A stretch of 39,639 nucleotides of DNA from an uncultured Candidatus Altimarinota bacterium (GTDB lineage Bacteria; Patescibacteriota; Gracilibacteria; BD1-5; UBA2023), in NCBI GenBank assembly GCA_936941205.1, contig CAKZJF010000082.1:66536-106174 (forward strand). The letters run 5' to 3'. The position numbers and the translations under genes were made by a program. How positions within the stretch are numbered: position 1 is the stretch's first letter; every line of letters begins with the position of its first letter. This document shows positions 1-37,136 of this stretch, piece after piece. A model generated the notes under the pieces. That model did no database searches, was not told the origin of the DNA, and saw only the letters and a program-made list of their open reading frames with translations.

Positions 1-1201
1 TATCAAAAACAGATTGATATGAAATATTTAGTAAATCTGAATAAAATCTATCATGAATAAGTGGGGTTTCTTCTTGATTGCAATATACTGGCAATCTATT
101 TACACGCTCTCGATTTGTATATACTGATGGCTGGTTAAATGGTCATGAAGCATGAATATAATCATGATAATCCACATCAAATCGAACATCAATATTTGAT
201 ATGGAGTACATCCCCATATTTGGATACTGATGTATATTTTTATAAAGTTCATCAATAGCAAAAGAAGAGAGAAAATTATCATCATCAAGAAATACAACAT
301 ATCGAGAAGTCTTATCTCGCTGAAGAAGTTTCCAACGAGTTTTTCAAACTCATAAATTTTTTCTATTCACAAAGTAATCAAAATTATGAAATTTATCTTT
401 ATATTGATTCAAGACTTTCAAAATATCACTTGTCTGTTTAGTGTTATATCCATCAACTCAAATAAAAATTTTAAAATTCATTTGAGTCTGTAAGAGTAAA
501 GATTCAAATAAATCTTTTATATATTTTGATCGAGCAACCGGTATATGGAGCGAAATAATCGGAACATATGTATGAAAAAAATCTTGTATTTTAAATTTCA
601 ATCGCGATTGTAAAAAAAAGATTGTATAGCACCAAATTTTTACTGGAAGTAATGATAATATGGCATCTTCTAAAAATATATTATTACTCGGGCAGGTATT
701 CATTTTTTGAATAAGAATACTATATAGCTTATATAAAGTTTGTGAGACTACTAAATTATCAGGAACAATTATACTTCTCGTAATCAGGATATTTTTTTCC
801 GAAGGAAAAATCGGAGACTGAATAAAATCGGTACAAGTAATCTTCTCAGTACATTCAAAAATTGGGATAATTACCTTAACTTCAGATGAAATCAAAGAAA
901 GTGTATGAAGTGCTATTCATGTAAGATGTTCAAAATAGTATAAAATATGATTTATACCTTTACACTCATCGTACTTTTCTATGAGGAAATATTTCCAATG
1001 TATTTTTGGAAGTCACTCCACATCAATACCATATATATCTCAATTAGTATCTACAAAAATAGTTTTCTTTTGAAATAAGGGTGAAGTATATCCGAAAAAT
1101 GAATATTCGTATAAATCTGCCTGATTGAACTCATTTACAAAATATCCACTCCCCTTATGTGAGTGGAGATAATTTCAAGAATCTTTCAGAAATATCTTCA
1201 T
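1..1201 (-). CDS. GT2-like glycosyltransferase, 3' end beyond window
   Basis: This is the last visible gene of the radical SAM/RiPP-like run. About 400 codons are visible, with the C-terminus cut by the window edge. The start is the ATG at 1201. Residues 1-210 match nothing I recognise. From about residue 215 the sequence resembles a GT-A (family 2) glycosyltransferase: IPVARSKYIKDL, then FKIFIGVDGYN, then NRKNLGVGKTRWKLL, then VVFLDDDN with the Asp triad near residue 305. Such triads bind the metal and nucleotide sugar. Several Gly codons are UGA, including the first G of IGVDG. It begins 29 bases after the upstream radical SAM gene, so co-transcription is likely. A role in glycosylating the peptide product is only an inference from position; it could equally serve surface polysaccharide synthesis. 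Confidence 0.7.
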
Positions 1202-1230
1202 AATAACAAATGATTCAAAAAAAGAGGAGT

Positions 1231-2124
1231 TTATGTTTTTTCAATTCTATTTCAACGGACATTTAGTATATTGTCATCACATTTCTTACAATATTCATTA
1301 TCAAGCCGAATAGTATCATAACATTGGTTTAATATATCAATCATTCCTCAGCTATAGGTATATTTATCAACATTTCAAAAATTATAATGAGAGCAAAATG
1401 TTCCGGCAGTTACTTCTCAGTTCCAAGTAAAAAAAGGTTTAAAGCCACACATTCCGTTATAATCATGGTATGGATCAGTTTCTCATGCAATATATAAGGA
1501 TTCATAATTTTCAAGCTTTCATCAAAAATTATGAAGCCTATGAACCACTCATTCCACTCATAAGGTATCACAAAATTTCTTAAAAGATGGGACCTCTTCT
1601 TTTGAATATTTTGTAAGTAAAAGCTCAAGACAAAAATCAAATTTTAATGATTTCATTCTTTTAATAGAATCTATGAGATCAGCATAATGATTTACACTTC
1701 AATATGTTCATCAATACATATGATTTACGATTTTCTCCCGTAAAGAATATAATCATAACTGAAGATTGATATTGATTCAATAATCTCGAAGTTCTTGGAT
1801 TTTAATAATGATATCATCCGTTAACCATCTTCAACCTTTTGTTGGGATAAGAAGAAAAATATCAGGGAGTTCTTTCAATTCATCAAGAATGAGGAGAATA
1901 TCTTTATTTAATAGTGACTCACCAATTCAGGCAAATGATATATATACAATATCATTTTTATTATATTGTATAAACTGAAGAATCTTTCTAAAATTTTCTA
2001 AAGTTAAATCTCATTGATTTTTAATAGTATGATGAATACATCAAATACAATTCAATCCACAACGAGAAGAAAGTTCAATATCAATTGGATATTTATATGG
2101 TTTTTCTGGATATTTTTCTATCAT
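1231..2124 (-). CDS. Radical SAM protein with C-terminal Cys cluster
   Basis: A 297-aa protein read in code 25. The radical SAM cluster motif is C22-x3-C26-x2-C29 (RCGLNCIGC, where G28 is a UGA codon). It is followed by YISFAGIGESLL near residue 55, which stands where other family members have GGE. The C-terminal third has scattered cysteines (MCGFKPF, TFCSHYN, NQCYD, YCKKCDDN), as in SPASM/twitch-type auxiliary cluster domains. The family reductively cleaves S-adenosylmethionine to start radical chemistry, often on peptides. The ATG at 2124 overlaps the 3' end of the upstream radical SAM gene by 32 bases, which suggests translational coupling. The substrate is unknown; the position implies the precursor-like peptide at 4030-4434. 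It is not recognisably HxsC. Confidence 0.8.
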
Positions 2125-3013
2125 ATTTTTTCAGTAAGGAAGAAAGAAGAACAAGGTTACTATATGATTGTTTTGTATTTCAATTATCAATAATATACTT
2201 AAGATAATCAAGATAACAATATTTCTTGAGTGAATCCTGTATTTTTTCTAGAGTCATATTGCCAATCTTTCCAATTGGAGTATTGATTTTCTTAACGATA
2301 TGAAAATATTCTTCAGCTGTTCCCATATTGTCTCACAAGATATCTCCATTTGGATTAATAGTGAATTCAAAATGATTATCTTTTGGTTGAAGGTAATAAA
2401 TATATCATATAGAAGCAATTTTGGTGAATTTTTCTATAAACCGTATAAACTCTAAAAGCTTCTTCATATCTTCATCCGTATATTGATGAACTAAAACTAT
2501 TGGGAGAATACAAATGTTTGAAAATCCTTGCTTGAGTAGAAATAAAAAATTCTCTTTCATCATCTTTCATGACACTTCTGGATCATATAGAAAATTAACC
2601 TGAACATTGTTTTTTTTGAGAAAAATTTGTGATATTTTCGCAAAAAGAACATGATTATTTCGATAATTCTCATTAAAACTCAAGGTAATATTATTAAGAT
2701 TAGTGAAAACTCTCTCATATATTTCATGGGTTATCAAGGTACCATTCGTAGTGATAGAAAAAGAAACGGTATCTCCCCTGCAAACAGAAAGAATTTTTTC
2801 AATTTTTTTCCATTGTAGAAGCGGTTCACCTCATATAAATTCTATATGTAGTGTATTAAAGGCGGTTTTATATTGTTGCACAAAATCTGCAATAGCATCT
2901 ATATGTATATCCGCAATAGTTTCCTTATTAAAATTTATTACACAATAAGAACATCGCAAATTACAATCATAACTGAGATATATAACAATATGCAGATATT
3001 GTTCTTTCTTCAT
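2093..3013 (-). CDS. Radical SAM protein, CNLRCSYC type
   Basis: A 306-aa protein starting MKKEQYLH at 3013. The cluster-binding motif is C17-x3-C21-x2-C24 (CNLRCSYC). The SAM-contacting motif IEFIGGEPLL lies at residues 57-66, and its first Gly (residue 61) is a UGA codon, strong evidence for recoding. The C-terminal half has INPNGDILGDNMG, a motif common in SPASM-containing peptide maturases, but few cysteines, so a complete SPASM domain is not evident. It ends LLKKYDRKISRKTI and overlaps the next radical SAM gene by 32 bases. It starts 27 bases after the U32-like gene. It is probably one of three radical SAM enzymes acting in one pathway; its substrate is unknown. Confidence 0.82.
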
Positions 3014-3040
3014 AAGATACTACTAAAATATGTTTGGAAT

Positions 3041-4012
3041 TTAAAAATACTTATCACAATTGGTACATTGATCACAATTGTGTGGACATGCTTGCATATT
3101 TTCAAAAAAATCTAACTTTGTAAGCTTCATATTATCAATAAATGGAACATATTTCTCAGCATCAAATATTCCCATATCAAGAAGGTCGAGAAGATTTCCT
3201 CTATATTCTTTATTTGAATAAGCAACCAGTTGTTTTTCAATATCGTTTGTTCAGAGGGTTCGTGTGGTTAGCTTAAAAATATCAACCACTTCCGTATATC
3301 TATTGAGATCTTCTGGTCGAACAAATGGTATCTGAAAAAAATACCGTTTATTTTCTTGAAGAAATGGAGTGCAAGACGATCATTCAATCAGATTAGAATA
3401 TTGAAGTTCATGCTCATTTGAACAATGAGAAAGAATATTGAAATGAGTCTGTCGAAAAGGGCAATCTTGTATACATCATTCATTCAGGAGAATTTGAATT
3501 TCTTTTCATGTGGCTTTCTTTATTTTTCCAATTAATTCAAGATTTCTATTAATATCACGATCGATTGTAATGATATCAACTCCAAGTTTTGCAAGATATT
3601 TTGCATGCAAAACCGTCTTTACATAACAATTCACAGACGAATATACACGTATATTGGGAATTTCTTTTTTAATAAAAGGAACATACAACATATTTGTAAG
3701 TGATACCGCAACAAGTCATTTACCATAAAGATCTTGAAGTACACTTAAAATTTTCTCGAGTTGCTGTTTTTCTCATGTCTTTTCTCATTCACAAGAAGAA
3801 TTTAATAAAGCAATTGATGTTATTCAAAATTTTGAACAAATATCAATCAGTTTTATAATTTCAGAGAAATATGTTAGATCTTGTACCACTCATCTTCCAG
3901 ATGGAATAATCTCTACTGGTAATGGAAAATAGATAGAGTGGATTTTTTCATTATGTTTCTCTACAAGATCGAAAAAATCTCATCTCCCATTATATCAAAT
4001 CGAAAATTTCAT
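3041..4012 (-). CDS. U32 peptidase/collagenase-like Fe-S protein
   Basis: A 323-aa protein that begins MKFSIGYNG, as U32-like proteins often do. The middle part, VYSSVNCYVKTVLHAKYL followed by GVDIITIDRDINRN, and then NEGCIQDCPFR near residue 178, matches the U32 (COG0826) core, whose conserved cysteines bind an Fe-S cluster in relatives such as UbiU/UbiV and RlhA. Further cysteines follow (SHCSNEH, SSCTPF), and the C-terminus ends in a dense cluster, CPHNCDQCTNC. U32 proteins include hydroxylases and maturation factors rather than true proteases in several cases, so the reaction here is open. An alternative in-frame ATG at 4036 would add MVIEQVHT and overlap the stop of the precursor gene; I chose 4012 from the family-like start. 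Confidence 0.65.
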
Positions 4013-4026
4013 AGTATGCACTTGTT

Positions 4027-4085
4027 CAATTACCATCTACTTCCATGACTTCCATGACTTCCATGACTTCCATGACTTCCATGAC
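4027..4085 (-). repeat. Five perfect 9-bp tandem repeats encoding HGS
   Basis: Five uninterrupted copies of acttccatg (plus strand) lie at about 4039-4085, flanked by a degenerate copy (actactatg). On the coding strand each unit is CAT GGA AGT, giving His-Gly-Ser. The repeat length is a multiple of three, so slippage would change the repeat number without a frameshift. It forms the C-terminal end of the precursor-like peptide. Confidence 0.9.
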
Positions 4086-4434
4086 TACTATGACCAAGGG
4101 TTGCAGTTCATGAAAGATCTGGAACTCCACTATAGTGTCAATTTACCACTCAACTTGCATGATTGGCAACAATACTTCCACGAATTCAACATGGTGCATT
4201 CATTCATGGTTGCTCAGAAGTTGCAGCATATGTATAATCTGGTCAGGCACGATTTGCTGTGGTACAGCTATTTGAATGACTCCAAGCAAGAACATCCTCT
4301 GCACTACTTAACAATACTGCTCAAGCACTGAGACCAAGGGCATCCTTTTTACTTATTTTTCCACTTTCATCCGTCAAGAATCATTTGATTTTCTTCTTAA
4401 GAACGGGAAATAATGGTTTCTTATTTTCTGACAT
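4030..4434 (-). CDS. hxsA: HxsA-like His-Xaa-Ser repeat RiPP precursor
   Basis: A 134-aa peptide that only appears when UGA is read as Gly. The N-terminus is basic (MSENKKPLFPVLKKKIKG), then comes a hydrophobic stretch at about 31-50 (DALGLSAGAVLLSSAEDVLA). The middle is rich in Gly, Ala, Ser and Thr and contains Cys57 and Cys82. The C-terminus is HSS at 115-117, then five HGS triplets at 118-132, then RW. His-Xaa-Ser repeats define the HxsA precursor family, and the gene sits directly between an HxsB-type maturase and further radical SAM genes. The five HGS units are identical at the DNA level. It begins 30 bases after hxsB. Cleavage site and modified residues cannot be read from sequence. 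The match rests on repeat type, size and context, not on an alignment. Confidence 0.75.
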
Positions 4435-4464
4435 AGAATGAAGTCTTATAAAATAAATGATATA

Positions 4465-5955
4465 CTAAACAACATCACACTGACCCACCACGAATCCAGT
4501 ATTAGCAACTCATACCCAAGATTCAAGGATTTTATTATTATCCTCATTTTTTAAATTCCTAAAAATATAGTCAAGAACAGCATAATCAAGAATTTTCTTA
4601 TGATCCTTTGAATAATTTGGAATTATATTTCATGTGGTTTTATATGAGTGAATAGGACATACTCCAATATATGGTTTATAAACACTTTCATTATATCCAG
4701 GTAAGCCATCCAGTGTACTTGCCTGAACCATAACTTTTGTAGTTTCACTATCAATCATAGAATTATATGCCTGTTCTGGATCATCCTGCACTTCTCCCAT
4801 TAAAAAGTTATCATCTCCCATACGCCCTAACATTCTTCATTCATCACAGCTATAGATCTTCCCATCATAATTATAAGCAACTTGTCCAATACAAGCACCA
4901 CAAGGACTTCTTTCATCAAGATAATTCGGATCAGTTTCTGTAAGAATCTTTAACAAATAAATACTCGAAAGGTTTTCTCGAAAAAATGTTCACTTCTTAT
5001 TTAATTCAAGAATGTAATCCATTGATTTTGTATAAAATTCAATAAATTCCTCTTGTGAATATCAGAGATTCTCAAGATCAGCAGCAGCAAATCCATAGGG
5101 ATTCAGTGGTCGGAGAAAAATAGAATCGAGTCCTAAGCTTATATATGTATCAATTACTTCTTTATATTTTGGAAGTGTTTTCTTTGTAACCGTAAGGAGA
5201 GCTCATACCTTAAGATTAATACCCCGTTTGATATACTCTTGATTAATTCGTTGAATCCAATATGAAACTTTCTCGAAGCTATTCCCCTCTTTATAAGTTC
5301 TATTAAAATTATGTGTTGTCTCATCACCATCAAGTGAAGTAGAGATTTGAATATTATGATCTATTAAATATGCCAATTTCTCATCATCCATAAGGGAAAG
5401 ATTTGAAACGAGAGCGAAAGTAATATTTTTTTTCAAATGAAAAGACTTAATCTCGGCATATTCTGTAATATATTTCACAATATCCCAATTTACTAAGGAT
5501 TCACCTCACTGAAATTCGATAGTAAGATTCGGTGAAGAAGTATAAAAAATAGTATCAACGACTTTTTTAGCAGTTTCTTCCGTCATATCCATATCTTTGG
5601 CAGTCATAGGTGCAACGGCTGCATGGCAATATTGACACTTATGATTACATCGAAGTGTTGTTACAATAATATGAAGAGTTGGACCATATGCAAGATACTG
5701 ATTTTTATTCATAAAGGCAACCGTCATATCCTGGAGATACGATGGTGTTTTTATGAACTTTTTTGTTACAAGTTCATTATATTTTTCTCCTGAACTCATT
5801 TCACCAGAAACAAAAGCATGAAATTCATCTTGGGAAAGAAATATATATTTACCAATATCATTCGTTAAAAGAAAAGATGTTTCATCAAATCGTTTAAAGC
5901 GGAAAAATCCGATAGTATCATTTTTTAGTGCAGCAATTTTAGAAAGACTAAACAT
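4465..5955 (-). CDS. hxsB: HxsB-type radical SAM maturase
   Basis: A 496-aa protein starting MFSLSKIAALKND at 5955. The N-terminal 90 residues (FFRFKRFDETSFLLTNDIGKY, FLSQDEFHAFVSGE) match the HxsB-type leader-engaging region: read-out of a Phe/Arg-rich strand followed by LTND and LSxxEFxxFV. The radical SAM motif TLRCNHKCQYC has Cys103, Cys107 and Cys110; TIEFQGGESLVNW follows, with Gly150 encoded by UGA. The C-terminal part has SPCGACIGQVAYNYDGKIYSC and later GVCPIH, consistent with a SPASM auxiliary Fe-S domain. Known HxsB proteins accompany HxsA, HxsC and HxsD and are presumed to modify HxsA. It lies just upstream of the HGS-repeat peptide and just downstream of the HxsD-like genes. Confidence 0.82.
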
Positions 5956-5960
5956 AGAAA

Positions 5961-6164
5961 TTAAATAGTTTCATTATAAAGAGCAAGTACATAATTCATA
6001 AATTCTCAAAATATTTCATCTATTCATTCTGGGGAGTCGCCCAGAACAAGAATATTTCCTTCTTGAAATTCAATCGGCGCATATTGTTTATAAAAATCAA
6101 CCGCATCTTGAACAATATCATCACAATATAGATTTTTATCGATCTTGAAACTTTGCTTTAACAT
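5961..6164 (-). CDS. Small acidic protein, possibly second HxsD-like partner
   Basis: A 67-aa protein starting MLKQSFKIDKNLYCDDIV. It overlaps the end of the HxsD-like gene by 29 bases and stops 5 bases before hxsB, so all three are likely translated together. The pattern NLYCDDIVQDAVDFYKQYAPI, then GNILVLGDSPEG, then EIFGEFMNYVLAL loosely follows the layout of HxsD (an N-terminal helix with aromatic residues, a beta strand, then a helix) in shortened form. It may be a second small partner that presents the peptide to the maturase. The relation to HxsD is my impression and needs profile comparison. Two Gly codons are UGA. Confidence 0.65.
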
Positions 6165-6702
6165 CTTTAATTGCATTAGGATTTAAGGTAATTTGAGGCT
6201 TAGAAGTTTCGAATTTTCCAGTTTCTTCTTCAATTTCTTTTAATATTCGTGCTATTTCTTCTTCATCAATCTTTAAGTCTGGATCATTTTCTATTTCTTT
6301 TAAAATCTCATCAATATCTCTATCAAAATCAATCATAGTATTCTCTTCTTTTTTATCAGTATTTAAGGCAACGAATCATTTCTTATCAATCGAATTTGCA
6401 ATGGCAGCTCATACAATTTTCTCTCTTATATCTTTATTATCAATCTCAAGTTTATTGCGTAAATATACACTTAAAATTTCATCACTCAAATCACCAATTA
6501 CATTTTCTATAGTTTTTCTTGAATTTGGTTTTAGAGTAATCTGAAGAATTATATTTTTATTCTCATCAAATCGAAAAAAGAAATATGCATCCTCTAGAAA
6601 ATTATAAGCAGCCTTCATGGCTATATCAGAATGAAACAAGGTTCAATCAATAAAAAATTCATATTTTCATTGTTCATTTGGGAGCTGACGTAAAAATTCC
6701 AT
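6136..6702 (-). CDS. hxsD: HxsD-like protein with long acidic C-terminal tail
   Basis: A 188-aa protein starting MEFLRQLPNEQGKY at 6702, the first gene of the run. Residues 15-110 follow the HxsD pattern: HSDIAMKAAYNFLEDAYFFF, a strand with ILQITLKPNS, then a helical part with DEILSVYLRNKLE, NKDIREKIVGAAIANSI. HxsD is a small protein that always accompanies HxsB and HxsC. Residues 118-165 are an added, strongly acidic, probably helical tail (DFDRDIDEILKEIENDP and EEEIARILKEIEEE), and the end is KPQITLNPNAIKDVKAKFQDR-like. An internal ATG at 6336 could start a separate product, but the frame is continuous through UGA codons, so one fused protein is the simpler reading. Confidence 0.65.
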
Positions 6703-9832: not shown

Positions 9833-12526
9833 CTAATTTGCAATATTTTTAAAACCTGGTGGTGGTGAATTCAAGAGTGCTGTGTTATATTCTATAATCA
9901 TAGAAAATCCTGAGTATGCATTGGCCCCAACTGAAAGATTTGATTTATGGGAAGCTTTTTGAATTGATGATAATCATCAAAATCCTGGACGAAAATGGTT
10001 ATAATCATAGCGCAAAGCAATATCTACCGTACATGGTTGAACACCTCCTGGACATACTGGAGCACTTATTTGTGCACTTCCACCAATAGTATTCTGAGAA
10101 AATAAAGATCAATGTATATAAAGTTGATTTTGTTTTTCTGGAGCATTTGTCATATATCATCCATAGTACGTCATACCATTTCCAGCAAAAACAGCATTAT
10201 CAGAATATAAGAAAGCTGCCATATTTTTCACATCTTTATCAATCCAGATATTTCCCCCTCTTCAACTCTCATCCTTCAGTGATATAATACCAATATTCCC
10301 TCATACATCAGAATTAATAACGATATCACACCCAAGAGTTATATAAGATTTCTTGGAGAATATTACTGGCAAAGTTATAAAGGTACCAGGACATGTTTTT
10401 ATAATTTCATAATCGAGATTTGTTGTATCTGTTATATTTCTTGATAAAAGTTCAACATTCTTTTTTATATTATTCCTTAAATCTGCCCATGAAAGAGTCG
10501 ATAAGCGATTTATATCATCCCCTTCTACCGTATGGTATACCGATTCTCCATTTGCATTCCCAATAATTTTCACAGTATCACCTACTGCATTTCATGATGA
10601 AGAAGATCAAGATAATGTACCTACTCAAGCCATTCGAAACGAAGGAAATACAACTTTCTTTCCATCCAAATAATAGGAAATTGTTGAGTAATAATTTGTA
10701 CTATAAGGAGGAACTGGAAAGAGTGATGTGGCAGATTTTTGTACAAAATAAATTCTAAAGAAATGAGTCCAGTATTGAAGCGGAAAGATAGTGGAATTTC
10801 AAATTTCCACGAGTGAAATATCCATCCATCACTTGGTACAATGTCATATATATCAGGTAGCAGTAAGTGCGTTCGCAAGACATCCAACATTTCAACCATC
10901 AAAATCAATAGGATCACGATATATTGCAAGATGATTATTGACTCAAGAAAGGGAAAGTCCATGAATACTTGAAAAACCTGTTAACGTTTTTGTGGTATTT
11001 GATTGGATTCATCCTGTCACAAAAAGATAACTTCATAAATTTACTGAACTTCCACTGAGAAAAACAATATCAGCCGCTGGTATAAATAAAAGATTCCCTG
11101 TGTTATACTTATGGGTAATATCAATTTCTCAAGAAGTGGATCAGAAGATTCCATCAACCATGTAAGAAAATCGTTTTAAGCTTCAGGTATTTCAAATAGA
11201 TGTCGGAGCAAATGAAGATATATTAATACCAAAGGCGTGTTTAATAGATTGTGGAAAAATAGAAATTCATGGACTTGTAAAAATATTATATGATTGAGTA
11301 GTTCATGAAAGATTAACAAAGAGCGCATCTCAAAAGTCATAATCAAATGCTCCCGAAAAAGTCGGTCACTCAGAAAAAATTGGAATCTGAAAGAAATCAA
11401 TAGTACTCAAAATATCAAATCAAATACTTACCTCCTTTACTCATGGTATCGTAATAACAGGATTTCCATATTTATCCCGTAAGAGTAATGTATATGGAAA
11501 ATATGTAAGATTATCTGCTACCTTCTTTCATATAAGTACTCAACCCGTAAGTCACTCATATCGAGTGGGGTAAAGAATTCAACCATCAATGCAATTATCC
11601 GAAGGAAGATGAGAAAGTGTTGAACAATATTGATGTAATTTATTCCCAGGAAGAAGAGAGGAAATACTTCACCCTGTAAGGATTTCTGAAGGTTCATTTG
11701 CATATACATCAAATCATCAACGTGTAATTGCATTATACGGATCAATCAATTCATACCGGTAAGAAGTCGCTATGGATAGATCAACATTTGCAAAAATAGG
11801 AATCACACTACTTGTAGAAAATATTTGCATTTCAGCCCCCGTTCCCATGAGATATTGTGGCCAAATAGTTAATATCCATGTACCCCACCGGGTATTACAG
11901 GTATCAACAGTAACATCAAAAGACTCATCAGTAACTCATCCAGTTCATATTGATATTTGTGGTGGACGAATACAAAAAAATACACCATCCTGTTCATCTC
12001 ATTCAAAAGGAATCCACCCTAAATTTACACTCCAAGCATGTCCATGCATTTTTCATTCAATAGGATCATAGGTTACTCAGGAAAAACCCGAAATGGGTCA
12101 TAACAGAATCCATCCAGCATTGATATTCCAAGCATATCCACTTACTTGACAAGATCCAGTTGAATATGATGGACAAATAAGAGTTGCTTGCGAGTTTGAT
12201 ACATTGTGATCAAAAGTTACCCATCCAACATTTTCCAACCAGAAAACCCCTGAAAATGTTCACACGATTCATCCGGTAAGTGGTCATGTAACATGAAAAT
12301 ATGGCTCATACCCTGCAGGAAGATATGGAGCAACATCAAAACGTACATTTCATGCATTTCATCATCCCCAAGAAATGGGAGGATGTATAACACCAGTAAG
12401 AGTGGATCAAGAGCTTATATATTCATCAACTCAATTTCCGTATACATCCATAAAAGATATTGCTATCATTCATATGATAGCAATAATCACAACCCAGAGA
12501 ATACTATGAAACTTCGATAAAAACAT
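9833..12526 (-). CDS. Secreted 897-aa protein with GWI/Trp repeats
   Basis: The protein starts MFLSKFHSILWVVIIAIIG, with a short basic end and a hydrophobic helix at about 9-27, so it is exported or anchored. Near the N-terminus three related units occur: GVFWLENVGWVTF, SGYAWNINAGWILL and GHAWSVNLGWIPF, a Trp-rich repeat of the form AWxxNxGWI seen in many secreted candidate-phyla proteins. The rest (about residues 200-897) is Ser, Thr, Gly and aromatic rich, with beta-strand-like segments and no recognised catalytic motif. Dozens of Gly codons are UGA. It starts 13 bases after the Cys-rich gene and probably shares its transcript. It is likely a cell-surface protein of unknown function. Confidence 0.8.
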
Positions 12527-14506: not shown

Positions 14507-14535
14507 TTGCAAAAAAATAGGTTTTATGGTGTAAT
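14507..14535 (+). promoter_or_regulatory. Promoter for first SLH protein gene
   Basis: TTGCAA (14507-14512) and TGTAAT (14530-14535) are separated by 17 bases. The ATG at 14564 lies 28 bases downstream of the -10 box. Confidence 0.6.
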
Positions 14536-14563
14536 AATAAGGAATACATATATTTTTCTTATT

Positions 14564-17500
14564 ATGAAAAACTATCCACTCCTTCATACACTCTGATGAA
14601 CCACATTTCTATTGATATTATTGGTTATTTTCTGAAATTTGTATGCGGAAATATCTATAGATAAAGAATTCCTTACTGGAAGCGGATTTAATAATACCGT
14701 TTCTTATATCAAAAAACAGATAAATGGGCAATATATTATTGGTGGAAATTTCAGTACCTATAATAATAGTAGTGGAAGTAATCTTATAAGACTTCAATCG
14801 AACGGAATAAAAGATTCAGTATTTATCGGTGGAAATATTGGATTTTCAGGAAGCAATATTCAAATCAAAAGTATATTTCAAAAAACAAATGGGCAATATA
14901 TTATTGGATGATGGGGGTGGAGTCATTATAACGGAAGTATGATTTCTTCATGAATTCTTCAATTAAATAATGATGGGAGTATTGATAATACATTTCTCAG
15001 TCAACTTTGAGTAGGTTGTGATAACATGGTTCAAAGCATTATAACCCAACCGCTTGATGGAAAAATACTCATTGGAGGAGATTTTATCAACTGTAAAGGA
15101 ACGAATGTTTGACGAATTACACGCTTAACTGCAAGTGGAACAATCGATGGAACCTTTAATGCTCAAGCAACTCTTGGAAAATGAGCCAATGCAACTGTAC
15201 GGCAAGTTACTCTGCAAAATGATACAAGCATACTTATTGGTTGAGATTTTTCCCTCTATAATAATATAAGTGTACAACCACTTATTCGACTGACCCATAC
15301 TGGATGAGTAGATAGTACTTTTAATCTTGGAAGTATCAGTGGAAATAATGCTTCTTCTATTAAGAAATTTCTCATCTATACAGGATCAAATAATACGCTC
15401 ACTGGGAAAATATATGGACTTGGTATTTTCGGAGGGAATAACTACATATTTCGTGCAAACTCTAGTGGAAGTATTGATGGGACTTTCGCTCCAGTTATTG
15501 TAAATTCAGGAACCCAATCATTCGTTTTTCAAACAGACGGAAGAATCATTGTGTGAGATAATAATCAACTTATTCGATTCAATACAAACGGAACAAGTGA
15601 TGCAACCTTTAACGCTTCATGAACTCTTTTTAGTGGAAGTATTCTTGCTCTTGAGATTGTTTCAGAAACAATCGAAGGAAATACTCCAATTCAACTATTA
15701 GTTTGAGGGAATCTTGCAGCATTTTGAACAGGCATCATAGGTAATATAGCTCGAATCAATGTTATTCCTGATAAACCAACAACTCCAACTGTGGCTCCAA
15801 AAATTCTTTGAAGCTCTGACACTGGATATGATCCTAAAGACGGTATTACAAATAGAATGTATCCTATATTTACTGGAACTGGATGTATGAATGGAAATAT
15901 TGTAACACTTCAAGTAGATGGTGGAAATATCTGATCTGGAAGTTGTATTAATAATGAATATGTCATTCAAAGTAACATACCACTTTCCCATGGAATTCAT
16001 TGAGCAAATATACTCTATACAAATCTTGGAGGAACATCAAATATATCTCCAACTCTTTCTTTTGAAATTGATGTCATTAATCCAACTATCAATCCAACTA
16101 TCATTCTCCCACTCTCCGGAAGTACTTTTACTGGATGAATTATTACACTCAATGGTACTGGTGGAGCAAATTGAATTATTTTTCTACAAAAGAACGGAGT
16201 AAATTATCTTACTGGTAGCACTGATATATGAGGAAATTGGAGTATCACTACAGGTAATCTAGGAGAATGAACTCATAATTTTATAGCTCATTTCGAAGAT
16301 TACGCTGGGAATAGTTCCCCATTGAACTCATCATGAGTCTCCATTATTATAGCAACTATTACCCCAAATGCTCCAACAATTACAAGTCCATATAATAATG
16401 CTGTCCTCAATACTGCTCAGCCAACTTTTTTTGGAACTGGAACACCCGGAAATAACGTAAGCATTACTGTCGTAGGATATGGGAGCTATACTGGAACAAT
16501 CGGAATAGACGGTGAATGGACTATTCAACCAAATCTTATTCTCTCAGATGCAACGTATACACTCCAGTGAACACAAACCAATAATCTATGAGTTACTTCA
16601 ACTATTACTACTAAAACTTTTTCAGTAAGAACCAATAGTACCGTTATACCATTTGTTCCAGATATGATTGATGCAAGTGATACCGGAGATTCATATACTG
16701 ATAACATTACTAATAATCAACGTCCTACTTTTGAAGGAACGAATTGTACTGGACCAAGTGATCTTATTACTCTCAAGGTTGATGGTGAACTCTATGGAAG
16801 TGGCGTATGTACGAATAGCGGAACATATTCTATGACAGTAAGTAAGCCAATTTCTGATGGTATACACTATGTATCCGTTGCCTATACACTTCTCGGTGGG
16901 TATGTGACTCCTGATTCTGACTTTCTGAGAATTACCGTGGATACCGTCACGCCATGAGCATTTGCTCTTGATAATGTGGAATATATTGGACTTGTTGTTA
17001 CTCCAACGCTTTGGTCAAAGGTACAAAAACCAGTATTTTCTGGACTTACCGAATCTGGAATCACTGTATCAGTTACAACTCTTGTTGGTGCAACCCTTTG
17101 TTCTAATATTTCAAACAATAGTGGAGCATACTCTTGTACATCCATTAGTCCCCTTCTTGAATGACAAAATAGTCTTTCTATACGTATATGTGATAAAGCT
17201 GGAAACTGTCGAACACCGATGCCAACACTCAATGTTATTATAGATACTATAATTCCAACAAAACCAACCGTAACATATCCACCAAATAATGGAATTACCA
17301 ATAATGCCAAGCCAACATTTCAAGGAACTGCCTCGTCAGGGAACATTGTTCGATTAACTATAAATGGAAATATCTACTCATCTGTCGTTGATACCAATGG
17401 AAATTGGGTAATCTCAGTGACTAATTATCTGAATGATGGAACATACTCAGTTGATGTATATCAAATGGATAAAGCACAAAATACATCTGAACATATTACA

Positions 17501-19237
17501 CAGAATATTATCATCAATTCAAACGCCTCAAGTGGATTCTCTATAATTGCACCGATTCCTGGAACGTACCTTTTAACAAAAAATCTTTCTGGTACTGTTT
17601 TTAGTGGAACATGTCAAACAGGATCTGTTATTTTTATGGATACTCCTATTGTAGCAACTGGAACATGTATAAATAACACATGGGCCATACCTGCGAATCT
17701 TTCTGCTCTCACTGATGGAAATATCACAGTTACTATACGGCAAAGAGATGCTGGAAATAATTTTTCTCCTTCTCAACCATATTTTTATATCAAAGATACT
17801 GTTACTCCTGGATTATCATTCACTTCTTCTGTTATCCCATGAGGATGAACGATAGAGCCAATCTTCGTTACTCTTCTTGGAAATGAAGCACTATCGGGTT
17901 TTACGGTATCAAATATACTGATTTCTACATGAGCTCAGATAACGGATTTTGCAAAAATATCTGGTACAAATAATTATTCATTTGTCATTCGACCTTTTAA
18001 TGAATTTGTTGGACGAATTGGTATGTCACTTTGAACCGGAAGTACCACAGACCTTGCATGAAACACTATTATACCAGTTGCTTCTAATATTTATTGGAAC
18101 ATACTCCCCTATTCTCATGCTAATCTTTATGTAAATAGTCGAGTACAAGAATCCTATGATGATTATCTTGGAAAAACAATAATCACTGTAACTACTGATT
18201 ACGGAAATGATGGTCAGAGTCTCGCTGAAAATGGATCCATTTCTATCAAACTTGATCCTCGAGTCACTTTTATAGAAGCATACATAAATGATGGTACCTA
18301 CGGAAGAAAGTTAAGTTTCATGGAAAATATATCATCCTTATTGGTTCCAAATGCCATTGCATACTATTCATCTGCAGTTGGCTCATATCAACTCAATACG
18401 AAAACATATACTGTATCTCTCGGTAAGATTCTTGCAGGAGAAAAATGAAATATTGTCGTTCGAACCAGTGTTGTAAAAGATGGACTTACCGCATTGAATT
18501 TTCAAAGCACCATATATGGACAAACAAAATATCAAGATGCTGTACGAGAAACAAATACAAATGATAATACATCAATAAGTCACTATATAACCAATGAACA
18601 AGATTTACTCAGTTCCTATCTTCCAGATATGAATGCAGCGACTAATCAAAAAGTTATAAATAATTGTTCACCACTCCAAGAGGCAGTTCCATTAAGTGAT
18701 ATTCATCTCCTGGATAGTGAAAACCATTGGGCAAATACCTATATGAAAGATATTATTCGATATTGAATTGAAGAAAATAGTAATTACTATTTACCAAATC
18801 TTGCGATTACACGTGCTGAATTCATAGCCATGATAGTACGAGCATTACCATGCAAATATTCAATCGAAGAGTTAAATAATGCGGAAAGTAGTTTTAATGA
18901 TGTAACCAATGATGTTTGGTATTCTCGATATGTATGAGTAGCAGAAGAAAATTACTGGATATCAAATACGACATGATTCTTTAGACCATATGATGCTATA
19001 ACACGGTCTGAGGCAGTATTCATTATTATGAGAACACTTGGACAAATGGAAATTGGAGATGATATTGATTTTCATGACATTGAAGAGGGTTGATATTTTC
19101 AAGATGCTATAAGAAGTGCTCGATATTTTGGTATCATTGATGGTTCAAAGATATTCGGACTTTCCTACTTTTATCCAAGTAATGATCTCCTTCGTTGAGA
19201 GGCGGCAAAAATAATTGAAAATGCTTTTCTTCAATAA
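14564..19237 (+). CDS. Giant S-layer-anchored protein: delta-60, Ig-like, SLH
   Basis: A 1557-aa protein in one frame (code 25). The signal peptide is MKNYPLLHTLGTTFLLILLVIFG-like, ending near AEISI. Residues about 25-400 contain delta-60-type beta repeats: GQYIIGGNFSTY, DGKILIGGDFINC, VGRITRLTASGTIDGTFN. Residues about 405-1000 are tandem Ig-like modules, each beginning like PTFFGTGTPGNNV or PTFQGTASSGNIV and ending WTIQP or WVISV. From about 1380 to the end are three SLH domains (HWANTYMKDIIRYGI, ITRAEFIAMIVRAL, WYSRYVGVAEENYWI, ITRSEAVFIIMRTLG, LLRGEAAKIIENAF). SLH domains bind the secondary cell-wall polymer or self-assemble on the surface. It has its own promoter and terminator, and two paralogues follow. 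Confidence 0.93.
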
Positions 19238-19248
19238 TCAGATTCTAT

Positions 19249-19278
19249 AAAAAATACAGCACAATGTGCTGTATTTTT
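19249..19278 (+). terminator. Rho-independent terminator after first SLH gene
   Basis: A perfect 14-base hairpin (AAAAAATACAGCAC / GTGCTGTATTTTTT) with a two- to three-base loop and a run of T. It begins 11 bases after the stop codon. Confidence 0.9.
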
Positions 19279-19331
19279 TACATTAAATATAACATTTGTC
19301 ATCTCAAAATATTCATAGAATCCATATATTT

Positions 19332-19360
19332 TTGAAAAAAGGTCAAGAGTGTGGTTAAAT
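19332..19360 (+). promoter_or_regulatory. Promoter for second SLH protein gene
   Basis: TTGAAA (19332-19337) and TTAAAT (19355-19360) have a 17-base spacer. An AGGAG at 19363-19367 is one of the few Shine-Dalgarno-like sites in the window, although it lies 18 bases from the ATG at 19386. The nearer ATG at 19381 opens a frame that stops after 15 codons. Confidence 0.5.
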
Positions 19361-19385
19361 AGAGGAGAATTACTATTTTCATGCT

Positions 19386-22300
19386 ATGAGAACTTTTCAA
19401 TCTTTTGCCACAATTCTTTCAGGAATAATTATCTGAATACTTGGAATCAACTCTTCGCTCCTTGAGCAAGCATTTTGAATGATTGTACGAAATGATCCTT
19501 CATTTCAGCCATGACTTGGATTTGAAAGTCAATACAACGGTTATATTCAAGATATACAGTATACGAGCTATTGAAAGATAATTGCAGTAGGAGTATTCTC
19601 TTCCTATGGAAATAGTTCATCACATAATATTATCCAAATGGATATAAATGGAAATAAAGATGCTGGATTCAATATGGGGGGATTTTGATATGAAAATGGA
19701 ATGACCAAAGTGGTAGAATGAACAGGGTGTATTTATGTATTTTGATACTCTCGTTATTATAATACAGGGAGTGTAGGATTAATTAGTAAATTAACCAATA
19801 CCTGAAAATTGGATACTAGCTTTCAAGTGAATGCATCTACCTTTTCTGGAAGAAGCATTAACAATATTATTATACAATCTGATTGAAAAATTCTTGTAAC
19901 CAGTTCAAGTGGTTCTACAGACAATATTATTCGTTTGAATACAAATGGTACAGTTGATGGAACGTTCACTAGCTTAGTATTCTCTGGTGTTTATAATAAT
20001 ATTCGAACTATAGCACTCCAAGGTGATGGTAAAATTGTGGTTGGATGAGCGTTTAGTAGCCTTAGTGGTCAAAATATTGGGCAGATTGCACGACTTACCT
20101 CAACTGGAATAATTGATTCAACCTTTGGAACTGGATGATTTACTGTTTGTGGTGGCACAGAACCTCCAAGTGTAGCAAGTATTAAGATAGATGGGAGTGG
20201 CAGTATTGTAGCAGGAGGAAATTTCTCAAATTTTCAAGGAATTTATCAACCAAGTATTATACGTCTTACCTCAACTGGAGCAAAAGATCCAACATTTGTA
20301 GCGACTGGTTGGCAGTATTGTAATGTACAGATAGGATCTGTACTTGTAGATACAAATAATAATATATATGTTTGAGAAAATGGACCATTCGTAATAGGAA
20401 ATTACGCAGGTACAGGAGTAAGTGAGATTATAAAATTTACTTCAACTGGAGCTCATATTCAAAGCTTTAAAACAGATCTCACTGATATGAGTACGGTATA
20501 TAAACTCCTACTTGAATCAGGTGGAAAAATTTTGGCTCTATGATATGTTGGGAGCTGATCATCGCATGGAGTGGCCAGATTCTCTGGAATTGATGGAACT
20601 CGAGATAGTTCCTATATTCACTGAAATATACGAACCCCATATGAAGCAACTTCTGATGATACTCTAGCATTACAAACTGATGGAAAAATTCTTGTTGTCG
20701 GAGGATACACTCATTATAATGGAACCTCTATTTGAAATGGAATTATACGAATAAATACAAATGGGATGATTGATACTATCTTTAATGCATGATCAGGTTT
20801 TTGATGGCCAAATGATATAATTGTAAATAGCAGTGGAAAAATACTCCTTGGTGGAAGCTTTAATAATCAAACCTACCAGGGACAAGGACTTTCTGGATGT
20901 ATATTGCAACTCTCATCTACTGGATGATTGGAATTTGTATTTACAAATACTAAAGTGCTTTGAATCACTCCAGAAACCCAAGAATGTTCGGTTCGAAAAA
21001 TAAAAACCCTCAGTGGGTGAAAGCTCATTGCAGTTGGTTCTTGGTATAAGAACTTGGGAGGATGATCAATAGGTGACCTCAAGCAAATTGTTCGTTTCAC
21101 AAATACATGAGAGGTGGATCGTATTTACAATACTAGCATGTATGACTGGATGAGTTTTCAGGATCTCGAATATTCAGAATCCGATGGAAAACTGACACTT
21201 ATAGGAGGCTTTAACCTCAGTGGTTGAATGTGGCAACCAAAATGAGTAATTCGATACAATCAAGATGGAACTCCTGATTATACACTCAATACAGGAATAG
21301 GATTTTATGAAAATGGATCACCCATTTTCAGTATAAAAAATGGTATTATAGATAGTTTCTGAAATATTATTGTAGGTGGACCAAATGGATATAATGGAAA
21401 TTCTGCATCTGGAAAACTTATAAAAATTAATCCAATAGGAACATTTGATTCAATCTTTCCATATCATATATATAGCTCAGGTGGTATAGAAAAATACTGA
21501 AGCATAACTGGAAATAACGATATATTTATGCAGAGTGGCGGTAGAATACTTTTCGGATCAATTCGACCATGTACTCAATGGAATTGGTGTGAATATAATG
21601 GGATTACACGTCTTACACCATCTGGACAATTTGATACGAGTTTTGATATAAAAAATGGATTCAATGGGAAAATTGGTGGAATAAAAGAATATCCAGATGG
21701 AAGAAAGGTAATCATTGGTGGTTTTAGTTTTTACTATGGCATGTCAGTTGCTGCTCCTGGAATTTTAGTATTGAATGATATACCATCAAGACCTGATTTG
21801 ATAGCCTGATCTGATACGGGTGATTCTTCAACTGATAATATTACACGAGATACACAACCAACATTTTATTGAACAGGATGTGATATTTGAGATGTTATAA
21901 CACTTCATATTGGATATTCTGGAAGTATGATTGGATCTACTTTATGTAGTGGTGGTTCTCCTTCGTATTATTCTATACTTCCAACCAATCCCCTCATCGA
22001 TGGAAATTATATAATTACCGTAAAACATACAAGTAGTTACTGAACAACGGTAGATTCCCATCCCCTTTCACTCACTGTTGATACAACCATATCACTTCCA
22101 ACATTTTGAACAGGAAATAGTTTTACTGGGGATTCTACTCCAACTATTTCGGGATCATGAGAAATTTGAGCCACTGTATTACTTACCATTAGTGGAAGTA
22201 CGTATACCAATACGGTAAACAACTCTGGTATATGGAGCATCACTCCAAGTACCTTACAGGATGGAATATACCAAATGCAAGTATATCAAAGAGATATTGC

Positions 22301-25223
22301 TGGTAATATTTCAAGTAGTACTGTATGATCCATCGGAATAGATACAACTCCACCAGGAGAAGCAAGTGTCACCTATCCTCAAAACAATATAGTTACCAGT
22401 AATACAAAACCGGTAATTCTTGGACTCTGAGAAACTGGAAGTTCTATATTTATAACAGTAAATGGGAATACCTATTCTGGAAAAGTCGATGGAAATGGGA
22501 AATGGTTTATCCCAATTTTACAAGCCCTTACCAATGGTGGAAATGCACTAAATATAAAACAAAGGGATGGAATGGGAAATACATCTACTGGTTTTACTCA
22601 TTGGATTCATATTGACCCAAGTATAAGTAATACTCCTCTTATTTTATATCCAGTAAAATGAACACTCATTAATATAAAACGACCAGTGATTCAATGAGCA
22701 GGAGGAACGTGAGATCCTACGAAACCAATTACTATCAATCTCGATAGTATTACCTATCCTGTCACAGAAACACTCAGTGGATGGATACTTACTCTTTGAG
22801 CTGATCTTACAGAATGAGTACACACGATGATATTGGAACAAAAAAATCTGAGTTGAATGTTACTTTCTCAGAGTATTTCAAGTTTTATTATTGATACCGT
22901 TGCACCTGGCAGTCCAACCCTTTCTTCGCCCATTACTCGAAATATTCCACTTTCAGGAATAACAAATTTTTCAATGACTGGAAGTTGTACTTTTAAGAAT
23001 ACGGTAGAAATCTCCTGATCAATATCTGGTAGTACCCTTTGTACAGCTACTGGATGGTCTTATACAACAAATGTAAGTAGTCTTTGAGATGGAAACATTA
23101 CTGTTACACTCAAACAAATAGATGCAGCAAAAAATATATCACCAGGACTCACGACAATATTTACAAAAGATACTATTATTCCTACTATATTTATTCAACC
23201 AACCAATATTCCAGAATGATCGCTTATTAGTCAAACATCATCACCTATTACTGTGCTGATCAATGTATCTGAATCTCTTTCAGGTCTCGAATTAAAAAAT
23301 ATCTCTGTCTCATCAGGAATGATTGCTCGAAATCTCCTACCTGTAGGTTGATACACTGGGAAATATACATTTGAACTTGTACCAGATCTTACAAACCGAT
23401 ATGTTGGTACTTTTCAAGTTTCGATTCCTGCAAATGCCATGAGTGATCTTGTGGGAAATGGGAATCAAGCAAGTAATATTTTTACGTATGTTATCGATAC
23501 ACTTCCTCCGAATGCTCCAGGAGTTACAAGAATCAAAGAAGAAGCTACAGGACAAATAAGCATATATGGCACTGGAGAATATCGAGCAAATGTACTTATA
23601 AAAAATTCTTCTGATACGATAATCTGTGATACGCCAGTTATCAGTGATAATACATGGAAATGTGTCACTCCGCTGATAGTAGGAAACCAAAACTGGAATG
23701 CCTATCAAAAAGATATATATGGAAATATATCTCCTGCAAGAAACATTAATTTTCATGCCGATATAAATAATCCCTATTTTATTCTGAGTCCAAGCATATC
23801 AACAAATCAAACTCTCACTGGAAAAGTATATATTTCAGTAAGCACAAATACTCCTACTCAAACAGGTATAGATATGAATTCAATGCAAGTAAGTAGTAAT
23901 GCAACCATTGATTCTATCATAAATAATTCATGAACCTATCTCATAGGATTGACCGTAAAACCAGAAGTGGCTGATATGGTAACTTTTCTTATGAAAACTG
24001 GAAGTATTACGGATGGTATGGATAGAAAAAATATCAGTGCTCAAGAACTTCGTTGGTATGGATACACAAAAAGTGTTGCCCCTCTATTCTCCTGATGAAC
24101 AAATGGAATAGCAAATCTTCAACTTCAACTCACTCATAAATCATCCACTGAAGAAACTTCCACTACTCTCGTGAATTTCCAGAATACGAGCAATGTACTT
24201 ATACCATTCGGATATATAATCATCCAATTAGATCCAAATGTACTCTTTCAATCGGCTACTATACAGAATGATACAACATCTAAAAGACTTTCTTGGGAAT
24301 CTATTATTCCTTCGGTTAGTGCAAATATTTCTGAGGCAGGAGGAAGTTATGATACTGTCAAACATCAATATAGAATTTCACTTGGACAGATATATCCATA
24401 TGCTACTGGTAGCGTGGAGATTGTAACAAAATTTAATACAGATATCATACAGAGTAGTAATTTACCTATTATAACAAGCTGAAATATTATAGGAAATACT
24501 CTCTCTTGAAGTCTCATAAGTGAATCTAATATAATGGACAATCAATCATCATCTACTTATATTTTTGATAATAATGATCTCTTAGATCTCTATTTTTCAT
24601 GAACCAGTACATATAGTGGAGAAACTGAACCAGCACTTCGCTCATGTTCACTGGAAGAAAAAGTGCCACTAACAAATATTATAGGGAAAGATATTAATAC
24701 AAGTTGGGCAAAGGATCATATTAACACACTTATACAATTTTGGATAGTAAAAAATCTCGAGAATTACCGCCCAAGTGCGTCAATAACTCGTGGCGAATTT
24801 GTTGCCATGATTGTTCGATCGCTCCGATGTTACTATAGTGTAGATGAATTGGAAAGTACAACAACCAATTCATTCTGAGATGTTAATAGTACTGACTGGT
24901 ATGCGAAATATATTGGAATGGCAGAGTTACAAGGCTGGTTACCAGAAAATCTCTGATATACTTTCCGACCAAATGAAATTATCAAACGTCGAGATGCAAT
25001 TACCTTTATTATGGCTGCATTGGGCGATACGGAATCTATGAGTGATGGATTTGAAGATATTAGTGATCTTTCCTATTATATTCAATGAGCAATTATAAGT
25101 GCACAACATTTTGGAATTATTGATGGATTCTCTGCATATGGAATGAAATATTTTCTTCCTGAAAATACACTTTCTCGTGCAGAAGCCGCAAAGATTATAG
25201 ATAAAGCTTTTCTAAAGAAATAA
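19386..25223 (+). CDS. Giant S-layer-anchored protein with long delta-60 region
   Basis: A 1945-aa protein starting MRTFQSFATILSGIIIGILG (signal peptide). Residues about 50-800 are delta-60-type repeats, for example QSDGKILVTSSSG, NTNGTVDGTFTSL, GDGKIVVGGAFSSL and QIARLTSTGIIDSTFG. Residues about 805-1290 are Ig-like modules (PTFYGTGCDIGDVI, PTISGSGEIGATVLL, KPVILGLGETGSSIFI). A less repetitive region follows, and SLH domains occupy about 1768-1945 (SWAKDHINTLIQFWIV, ITRGEFVAMIVRSL, DWYAKYIGMAELQGWL, RRDAITFIMAALG, LSRAEAAKIIDKAF). The layout matches the first protein with a longer repeat region, so they arose by duplication. It probably forms part of the cell envelope or mediates attachment. 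Confidence 0.93.
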
Positions 25224-25244
25224 GACATACAGAATTAATATATG

Positions 25245-25278
25245 AAAATACCTCATACAAGTACATATGAGGTATTTT
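25245..25278 (+). terminator. Rho-independent terminator after second SLH gene
   Basis: A perfect 12-base stem AAAATACCTCAT / ATGAGGTATTTT with a ten-base loop, starting 21 bases after the stop codon. An AT-rich stretch follows. Confidence 0.85.
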
Positions 25279-25390
25279 ATATTATACAATATAAAAATAA
25301 ATAAGACATATAAAATATAAGCGTACTCTCTAGGAAATTTGTTTGTCAGATGAAAAGATGCTACTCTATTATTGCTATAGTTTTTATACC

Positions 25391-28300: not shown

Positions 28301-29455
28301 CGATGAACCATTCAGATTCATACAAAACTCTGATCAGGAATTACAAGTAAAGAACTCGCTATTCTTTACCGTTCTAATATCTCTGTCATTGGATCTCAAT
28401 GAAATATTGATCCAAATCCCAATGATAATACATCAGAAACTCGATATCTCCTTAATAATCAGGATCTTCTTGAAATCTATTTCTGAAAGATAGAAACTTT
28501 TATACAAAATGATATAAAACGATGTGATAACTCTGAAATTATTATACCAGATGATGAAATCATCACAAAAGATATCACAAATTACTGGGCAGGATCATTT
28601 GTAAAAAATCTTATTAATCATTGAGTTATTGCAAATAATTCATACTTTCTTCCTCAAAAAAATATAACTCGTGCAGAATATGTTACAATGGTCGTACGTT
28701 GACTCTCTTGTAAATATGCTGCAGATATTCTCGATAATATTTCATCATTTAATGATATTGAAGAAACGAGTGAATATAATCCATATATCGGCTTTGCGGA
28801 AAGTAAAGGATGGATACAAAACCGAACTGGATACTTCCGTCCAAATGACTCTATAAGTCGTTCAGAAGCGGTACAAATACTCATGAATGCAATGGAAAAT
28901 ACAAATACTTCAACGGGAAGTTTTGATGATATTGGGCAGGCAGGAATATTTCAACAAGCCGTAAAAAGCGCAAAATATTTTTGATTCATCAATGGACAAT
29001 ATATCAATTGACTTTCTTTCTTCTTTCCAAACAGAAATCTCCTCCGTTGAGAAGCTGCTAAGATGATTAGTAAAGCATATTTCCCAAGCTTTACTGGAAG
29101 TACTGAGGTATTATCAATTTCAGGAAATACCACAGAAAATTCCGGATCAGTAGCTACTGGAAGTATAACACCTTGAAATAGTTATACGGGAAGTATAACT
29201 ATCAGTACTCCTACAAATAATACTACCATACCTCTGAATTATGCTTACATCGATGGATATGCAACGAAGAATTCTCTCGTGCGTATATTTGTAAATTGAG
29301 CTTTTCGGGTTACCTGAACTGCATGAGAAGATGGAACATTCCATATGTTTCTCAATAGTCTCGAAGCAACTAATACCATCTATGCAACTATTATTGACCC
29401 CAATGGTGCAGAACTTACAAGGAGTAATAGTATTCTTTTAAAGGTAATACAATAA
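25391..29455 (+). CDS. Giant SLH protein with ELWxxDGT-like repeats
   Basis: A 1354-aa protein. From the ATG at 25391 the start is MNSLNHLILAHLTGGITKKY and then the hydrophobic SSGILLFIVCMQIFL, ending at FAEAYY, a plausible signal peptide with an unusually long n-region. Residues about 117-535 carry beta repeats of the ELWxxDGT type: VYYSAYRPGVGTELFKSS, IYFSANDGILGQELRKAN, VYFTANDGIHGVELWKID, LYFSANNGINGEELWKIN. Ig-like segments follow. SLH domains lie at about 1057-1230 (YWAGSFVKNLINHGVI, ITRAEYVTMVVRGL, ISRSEAVQILMNAM, LLRGEAAKMISKAY). Unlike the other two, it has about 120 more residues after SLH, including another Ig-like module (AYIDGYATKNSLVRIFVNG). Confidence 0.9.
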
Positions 29456-37058: not shown

Positions 37059-37086
37059 TTGACATGGAGAAAAAATCTGATACAAT
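37059..37086 (+). promoter_or_regulatory. Consensus sigma-70 promoter for dnaK
   Basis: TTGACA (37059-37064) and TACAAT (37081-37086) with a 16-base spacer. The transcript would begin at about 37093, giving a 44-base leader to the ATG at 37137. Confidence 0.85.
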
Positions 37087-37095
37087 GCCTCCATA

Positions 37096-37111
37096 CTTCG
37101 AGAAATCGAAG
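37096..37111 (+). other. Hairpin with GAAA tetraloop in dnaK leader
   Basis: CTTCGA and TCGAAG form a perfect six-base stem closing a GAAA (GNRA) loop at the very 5' end of the predicted dnaK transcript. This could stabilise the message. No Shine-Dalgarno sequence follows before the ATG. Confidence 0.6.
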
Positions 37112-37136
37112 AAATTTATATCATTTATTTATAAAT

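Follow-up and report, generated by a model that had tools for sequence, protein, structure and literature searches.

The stretch of DNA considered here (39,639 nucleotides, hereafter the window) lies at the end of a 106 kb contig, C82, from an uncultured Candidatus Altimarinota bacterium, and its first 6702 positions carry part of a gene cluster related to the Hxs peptide-modification systems. An earlier note, made from the sequence alone, had proposed here an Hxs-type pathway for a ribosomally synthesized and post-translationally modified peptide (RiPP). We read this segment under genetic code 25 and scored profile matches against the curated NCBIfam and Pfam cut-offs. It contains eight genes and not the nine that had been claimed, all on the minus strand as described, from that of an HxsD-like protein to a glycosyltransferase gene cut by the window edge. 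They represent about one fifth of the full gene run, which extends to the left some 30 kb past the window edge, to C82:36552. The complete cluster comprises 35 genes in 36.7 kb, 34 of them on one strand with gaps mostly under 30 bp, and includes 18 radical SAM genes, each scoring above the Pfam cut-off. It is probably an Hxs-type RiPP pathway that has grown into a modular radical SAM megacluster with a single exported precursor as its substrate.

The two HxsD-like proteins of the earlier note are both present. The first gene of the cluster (6136-6702; minus strand, as are all positions given for this segment) encodes an HxsD-like protein of 188 residues with an extra acidic C-terminal extension (TIGR03976, 40.6 bits against a cut-off of 50), which has homologues in 21 related loci. 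The second (5961-6176) encodes an HxsD_rel-like protein of 71 residues (NF038315, 39.2 bits against 41) for which homologues were aligned from 17 loci. Both profiles, though below cut-off, matched over nearly the full length. We considered whether HxsD could be a leader-binding RiPP recognition element (RRE) and rejected the idea; its predicted fold is beta-alpha-beta-beta-alpha and gave only weak matches of the RNA polymerase Rpb11-like type, with E above 0.005.

The third gene (4465-5955) encodes a protein of 496 residues that is confirmed as an HxsB radical SAM peptide maturase, scoring 508.5 bits with TIGR03978 against a cut-off of 370. Its AlphaFold model (predicted local distance difference test, pLDDT, 84; predicted template-modelling score, pTM, 0.87) places an N-terminal winged helix before a radical SAM/SPASM-type body. 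Residues 19-84 are modelled with high pLDDT in the order E-E-E-H-H-H, as in RREs, a likeness drawn from the model. The best PDB folds for the model are CteB, anSME, TigE, ChlB and SuiB.

Next follows the precursor gene (4030-4434), the only one detected in this genome, whose product of 134 residues ends in (HGS)5-RW; the short peptide with a C-terminal His-Gly-Ser tract reported earlier is therefore present. It falls below the cut-offs of HxsA3 (NF038309, 36 against 65 bits; a match to the leader), HxsA4 (NF038313, 26.9 against 55; a match to the C-terminal half) and HxsA2 (15.4 against 48), but is conserved in 20 aligned loci. The leader, residues 1-50 (4285-4434), has a K-rich start, the motif F-L-T-x-E-S-G-K-I, a short hydrophobic stretch and V-x-A; E23, S24 and A50 are invariant, and we infer cleavage after A50. 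A variable middle separates V-x-A from a core-proximal motif HASG(I/V)VNGHYS (4129-4161), in which N98-G99-H100 is invariant, and the repeat itself (4039-4083) is built of a 9 bp DNA unit and ends with W or Y in most of the 20 sequences. Since HxsA, HxsC and HxsD homologues all score under the NCBI curated cut-offs and HxsB alone of the four families passes, the locus is to be regarded as a divergent Hxs variant. The proposal of a radical-modified RiPP pathway is well supported by the HxsB score, by the adjoining conserved leader/core precursor and by the maturase fold with its RRE-like N-terminus; the locus is, however, not a compact one.

The remaining genes of the segment begin the long middle of the cluster. 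A U32-family-like protein with conserved Cys (3041-4012) scores just below the PF01136 cut-off (20.4 against 22.4 bits); its family profile matches the U32 structure 5d88 with an E of 2.5e-5, and it is a possible candidate for an O2-independent hydroxylase. Two radical SAM proteins follow, one nearest to PapB/ranthipeptide maturases (2093-3013; PF04055, 62.6 against 29.5 bits; NF047865, 65.8 against 340) and one with a 62% identical orthologue in Candidatus Gracilibacteria STC_119 (1231-2121; PF04055, 39.8 against 29.5 bits). The family 2 glycosyltransferase at the edge (1-1201; PF00535, 43.3 against 23.3 bits) has 484 residues on the contig, after which come 27 more cluster genes. By superfamily resemblance four radical SAM proteins of the cluster are MiaB-like, one is HemN-like, one is NirJ-like and several are PapB-like or HxsC-like, all far below equivalog cut-offs. 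Tailoring genes encode a glycosyltransferase, a Polysacc_synt_2 epimerase, a PIG-L deacetylase, a short-chain dehydrogenase, a carbamoyltransferase, a PPDK N-domain, two U32-like proteins and, below cut-off, an APH-like kinase. At the 3' end lie an HxsC-like radical SAM gene (C82:36552-37490; the best HxsC match, TIGR03977, 94.7 against 267.9 bits) and an adjoining HxsC4-like gene (120.9 against 500 bits with the HxsC4 model). The products of this pair share 58-73% identity with the corresponding proteins of ten other loci, a conservation about equal to that of HxsB, and the pair is followed by a divergently read gene for an A24-type peptidase.

Genome-wide there are 28 PF04055 matches, two of which are on contig C86. 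These are adjacent genes (C86:19847-21916) for proteins of about 450 residues that lack UGA in a UGA-recoded genome; C86 is probably a contaminant, the contamination of the bin being 3.4%. With this pair removed, 18 of 26 radical SAM genes fall within 2.8% of the genome (binomial p of about 1e-22). Such contamination could prompt the suspicion that the cluster is an artefact of assembly or binning, or an ordinary Hxs locus that happens to lie by unrelated radical SAM genes. We find this scarcely credible. The cluster contig is UGA-recoded throughout, and the same architecture recurs in many independent metagenome-assembled genomes (MAGs), on long contigs and including a single-contig genome (G043) and one of eight contigs (G047), with the order from HxsB to HxsC repeated; because synteny holds across relatives, this explanation is in the main refuted.

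That UGA is read as glycine was confirmed by alignment: 254 UGA codons from 23 HxsB genes align with glycines of a standard-code Myxococcota HxsB, which non-Gly codons meet in 3.4% of cases. Under translation table 11 the eight UGA codons of the precursor break it into nine pieces, the longest of about 25 residues, as the earlier note had anticipated. Its further suggestion, that such loci are under-reported for this reason, is plausible and agrees with their absence from the papers searched. Models for HxsA3, HxsA4, HxsC4 and HxsD_rel do exist in NCBIfam, however, so related Hxs forms have already been seen by curators. Elsewhere in the window a DnaK/Hsp70 gene (37059-39017, plus strand; 652 residues) has no UGA codon, though neighbouring genes use UGA often, and highly expressed genes may avoid UGA-Gly. 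Its antisense frame yields a spurious NAD-GH (PF10712) match.

We searched 59 genomes of the order, and the co-occurrence tests that follow carry no phylogenetic correction. HxsB exceeds its cut-off in 33 of the 59; the precursor gene was seen in 31, and HxsB accompanies it in all except one. The two conditions under which the earlier note would have been refuted, a low HxsB score and a peptide gene missing from every related locus, thus do not hold. At least one of HxsB and HxsA is present in 35 genomes (both in 30, HxsB only in four, HxsA only in one) and neither in 24 (p of 2e-11). Outside the order, one genome of another order of the same class (G122) has HxsB at a slightly lower score, and in a 380-genome sample of the phylum two standard-code genomes carry HxsB. 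We do not regard Hxs as a general Patescibacteria trait, given only these two genomes besides our own among the 380 sampled, together with G122 from elsewhere in the class.

We read the gene neighbourhoods of 24 Gracilibacteria loci; the named relatives are the Candidatus Gracilibacteria MAGs CG12_big_fil_rev_8_21_14_0_65_38_15 (the same contig as G010), STC_119 and STC_120. The layout is one precursor with a fairly constant 5' block of HxsD, HxsD_rel, HxsB and HxsA, then a middle that varies and can hold as many as about 15 additional radical SAM proteins plus tailoring enzymes. Larger clusters close with a constant 3' block of HxsC4-like and HxsC-like proteins and the divergent A24-type peptidase, often with a gene for an HExxH hydroxylase alongside. 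The middle varies more than the ends do. Our own middle shares its 5' half with STC_119 and its 3' half with G012, G037, G045 and G051, a split in gene content that looks like module exchange. Cluster size across the lineage is 9-37 kb, and the largest case takes most of the radical SAM enzymes of its genome. In the middle of the G012 cluster (L054:15954-19653) NifH-like and nitrogenase/BchB-like genes sit inside the radical SAM cassette.

Counted over the 18 loci in which both the precursor could be read and a 3' marker is present, radical SAM genes number 2-18 per locus, with a median of eight. Most relatives carry a repeat of the form (HGS)4-11; in several small clusters (GS)n, (HSS)n or a degenerate repeat takes its place. 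Four or more HGS units are present in 10 of 10 complete loci with at least eight radical SAM genes against two of eight with fewer (p of 0.0015, uncorrected for phylogeny), and repeat type correlates with radical SAM number (Spearman 0.51). No other observation hints as strongly that the middle enzymes may act on the repeat. Repeat numbers in MAGs may be unreliable, with short-read assembly failing at the repeat: on G010:C47 (L061), near 6240, a run of N sits exactly in the His-Gly-Ser tract. Genome G029, which lacks an HxsB over cut-off, has two HxsA genes in separate loci (L091, C1:203407-203796; L092, C6:20442-20795), each near radical SAM genes, and one of them carries a Gly-Ser/Gly-Thr repeat.

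The mixture of enzymes suggested a different outcome, in which HxsA serves as a disposable scaffold. A small molecule or cofactor would be assembled by the middle enzymes on the repeat or next to it and then excised, as with pyrroloquinoline quinone or mycofactocin, and the end product would be something other than a peptide. For peptide work the set is an odd one, with radical SAM proteins resembling NirJ, HemN and MiaB next to a glycosyltransferase, deacetylase, epimerase and carbamoyltransferase, and with NifH/BchB-like proteins besides in one relative. The radical SAM names are superfamily-level only, though, with the best family scores far below any cut-off; variation of the repeat number from 4 to 11 would be odd for a fixed small product, and the leader has an export-like hydrophobic stretch. 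We think this outcome unlikely.

A further alternative sees in the His-rich repeat chiefly a surface peptide, metal-binding or structural in function, with a simple HxsB cross-link, the middle genes serving other surface chemistry, for instance of glycans, that shares the locus. His-rich cores and an export-like leader fit such a peptide, and some relatives have just two to four radical SAM genes. Glycan-type enzymes and secreted exoproteins also adjoin the cluster, but the exoprotein family is not Hxs-specific. The middle genes, moreover, are interleaved in one tight run between the two Hxs blocks, the excess of radical SAM genes is tied to Hxs-positive genomes (median of 14 per genome against six in Hxs-negative ones) and repeat type covaries with their number. 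This alternative, too, seems to us unlikely. The exoprotein family is multi-copy and flanks the cluster on both sides (window 9833-12526 and C82:29822-35002, both on the minus strand); occurring in 54 of the 59 genomes of the order, it was rejected as a part of the system. Further along the window (14507-29455, plus strand) are three consecutive giant surface proteins of 1576, 1945 and 1370 residues, the first two with bacterial Ig-like, beta-propeller and S-layer homology domains.

Two further enzymes follow the Hxs genes closely. Firstly, the A24 peptidase (PF01478, 33.1 against 26.5 bits) retains both catalytic Asp residues, with D23 and G83-D84 invariant in 12 homologues, and occurs in 26 of 35 Hxs-positive genomes against none of 24 Hxs-negative ones. 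Secondly, an alphaKG-HExxH peptide beta-hydroxylase family without a Pfam match (TIGR04267, 61.6, 52.3 and 62.4 bits against a cut-off of 40; H206-E207-x-x-H210 invariant) occurs in 23 of 35 against none of 24, and its gene adjoins the A24 gene in most relatives. The family profile matches the ChlH structure 8s5f with an E of 0.0017, and ChlH hydroxylates His and Asp residues of a RiPP (PMC12636437). With a His-Gly-Ser core, beta-hydroxylation of His is the natural prediction and a plausible step. In a myxobacterial relative, a Polyangia MAG (L066), a gene for an HExxH hydroxylase scoring 87 bits lies about 6 kb from an HxsB gene (2350-3930 and 9956-11494), which suggests that the pairing reaches beyond Gracilibacteria.

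The A24 peptidase might have been expected to cut at the prepilin-like G-F-L-T-x-E of the leader. This now seems doubtful. The residue at -1 is not constant, and the motif persists in loci for which a search, made without a positive control, gave no A24 homologue; it is probably a recognition motif and not an A24 site. Export of the leader by the Tat route, considered because the leader looks like a Tat signal with KK for RR, was rejected, TatC being absent from all 59 relatives against its presence in 11 of 14 control genomes.

In the enlarged Hxs pathway that we favour, the leader would be bound by the RRE-like N-terminus of HxsB, and HxsB together with the HxsC-like pair would start the radical modification of the His-x-Ser core. 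The middle enzymes might then introduce changes that differ between lineages, such as methylthio groups, thioether or C-C links, hydroxylation, glycosylation or carbamoylation, and the HExxH enzyme would beta-hydroxylate His. Export would be via Sec, and trimming, done either behind V-x-A or by the A24 peptidase, would give a surface or secreted product, possibly a bacteriocin-like agent, a host-attachment tool or a metal-binding surface peptide. More tentatively, and with less conviction, we entertain the idea of a radical SAM assembly line, in which one conserved scaffold peptide would meet an exchangeable set of as many as 18 radical SAM enzymes and so receive lineage-specific combinatorial chemistry.

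Several points weigh against the favoured pathway. Only HxsB and the hydroxylase pass NCBIfam, the HxsA, HxsC and HxsD homologues remaining under the curated cut-offs. HExxH enzymes require O2, and in our own genome the HExxH gene is 20 kb from the cluster end, on the same contig. Other Patescibacteria likewise have F-L-T-x-E in the leaders of their Hxs loci, and there no A24 peptidase was detected, by a search without a positive control. That the middle enzymes act on HxsA is suggested by synteny, co-occurrence and the correlation with repeat type, and both the chemistry and the biological role are inferred from sequence.

A gene-poor lineage that gives 9-37 kb to one repeat peptide must gain much from it. 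If the assembly line is real, ultrasmall and probably host-dependent bacteria keep the cassette at a cost of nearly 3% of the genome. The natural series of 2-18 enzymes per precursor, with a linked candidate His hydroxylase, would allow reactions to be assigned enzyme by enzyme, and code-25 translation would reveal clusters that standard pipelines shred.

Hxs systems were named more than a decade ago. Our literature search found no paper describing the present system and none giving the product of Hxs systems; the single paper found to mention both Gracilibacteria and radical SAM is unrelated. We know of no described RiPP cluster with as many radical SAM genes. The cluster resembles the known systems (TIGR03976-TIGR03979; NCBIfam HxsA2/A3/A4, HxsC4 and HxsD_rel) in its HxsB equivalog over cut-off, its His-x-Ser repeat precursor, its HxsD and HxsD_rel homologues and its HxsC- and HxsC4-like radical SAM proteins. 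It differs in the sub-threshold HxsA, HxsC and HxsD, in as many as 15 additional radical SAM enzymes lying between HxsA and HxsC, in a dedicated A24 peptidase and HExxH hydroxylase, and in code 25. The Hxs loci of the standard-code Patescibacteria G572 and G506 share the order HxsD, HxsD_rel, HxsB, as well as HxsC4-like genes, several radical SAM genes nearby and a precursor with the leader FLT-x-E, with His-x-Ser repeats in G572; they belong to a separate lineage, use the standard code, have no A24 peptidase match and show smaller sets within the stretch read. ChlB/ChlH, which carry out cyclophane formation and His/Asp beta-hydroxylation, likewise combine a peptide-modifying radical SAM enzyme with a TIGR04267 HExxH hydroxylase, and the target here is His-rich. 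Our cluster, however, has far more radical SAM enzymes and no evident cyclophane-type aromatic core, and the relation is at the family level only. Among SPASM RiPP maturases CteB (SCIFF) is the closest solved fold to HxsB (5why/5wgg), but the identity is about 19% and the precursor here is a different one that has no Cys-rich core. With its enlarged modular radical SAM cassette, single precursor, A24 peptidase and hydroxylase, the cluster is a new Hxs variant, in which strict Hxs membership belongs to HxsB only.

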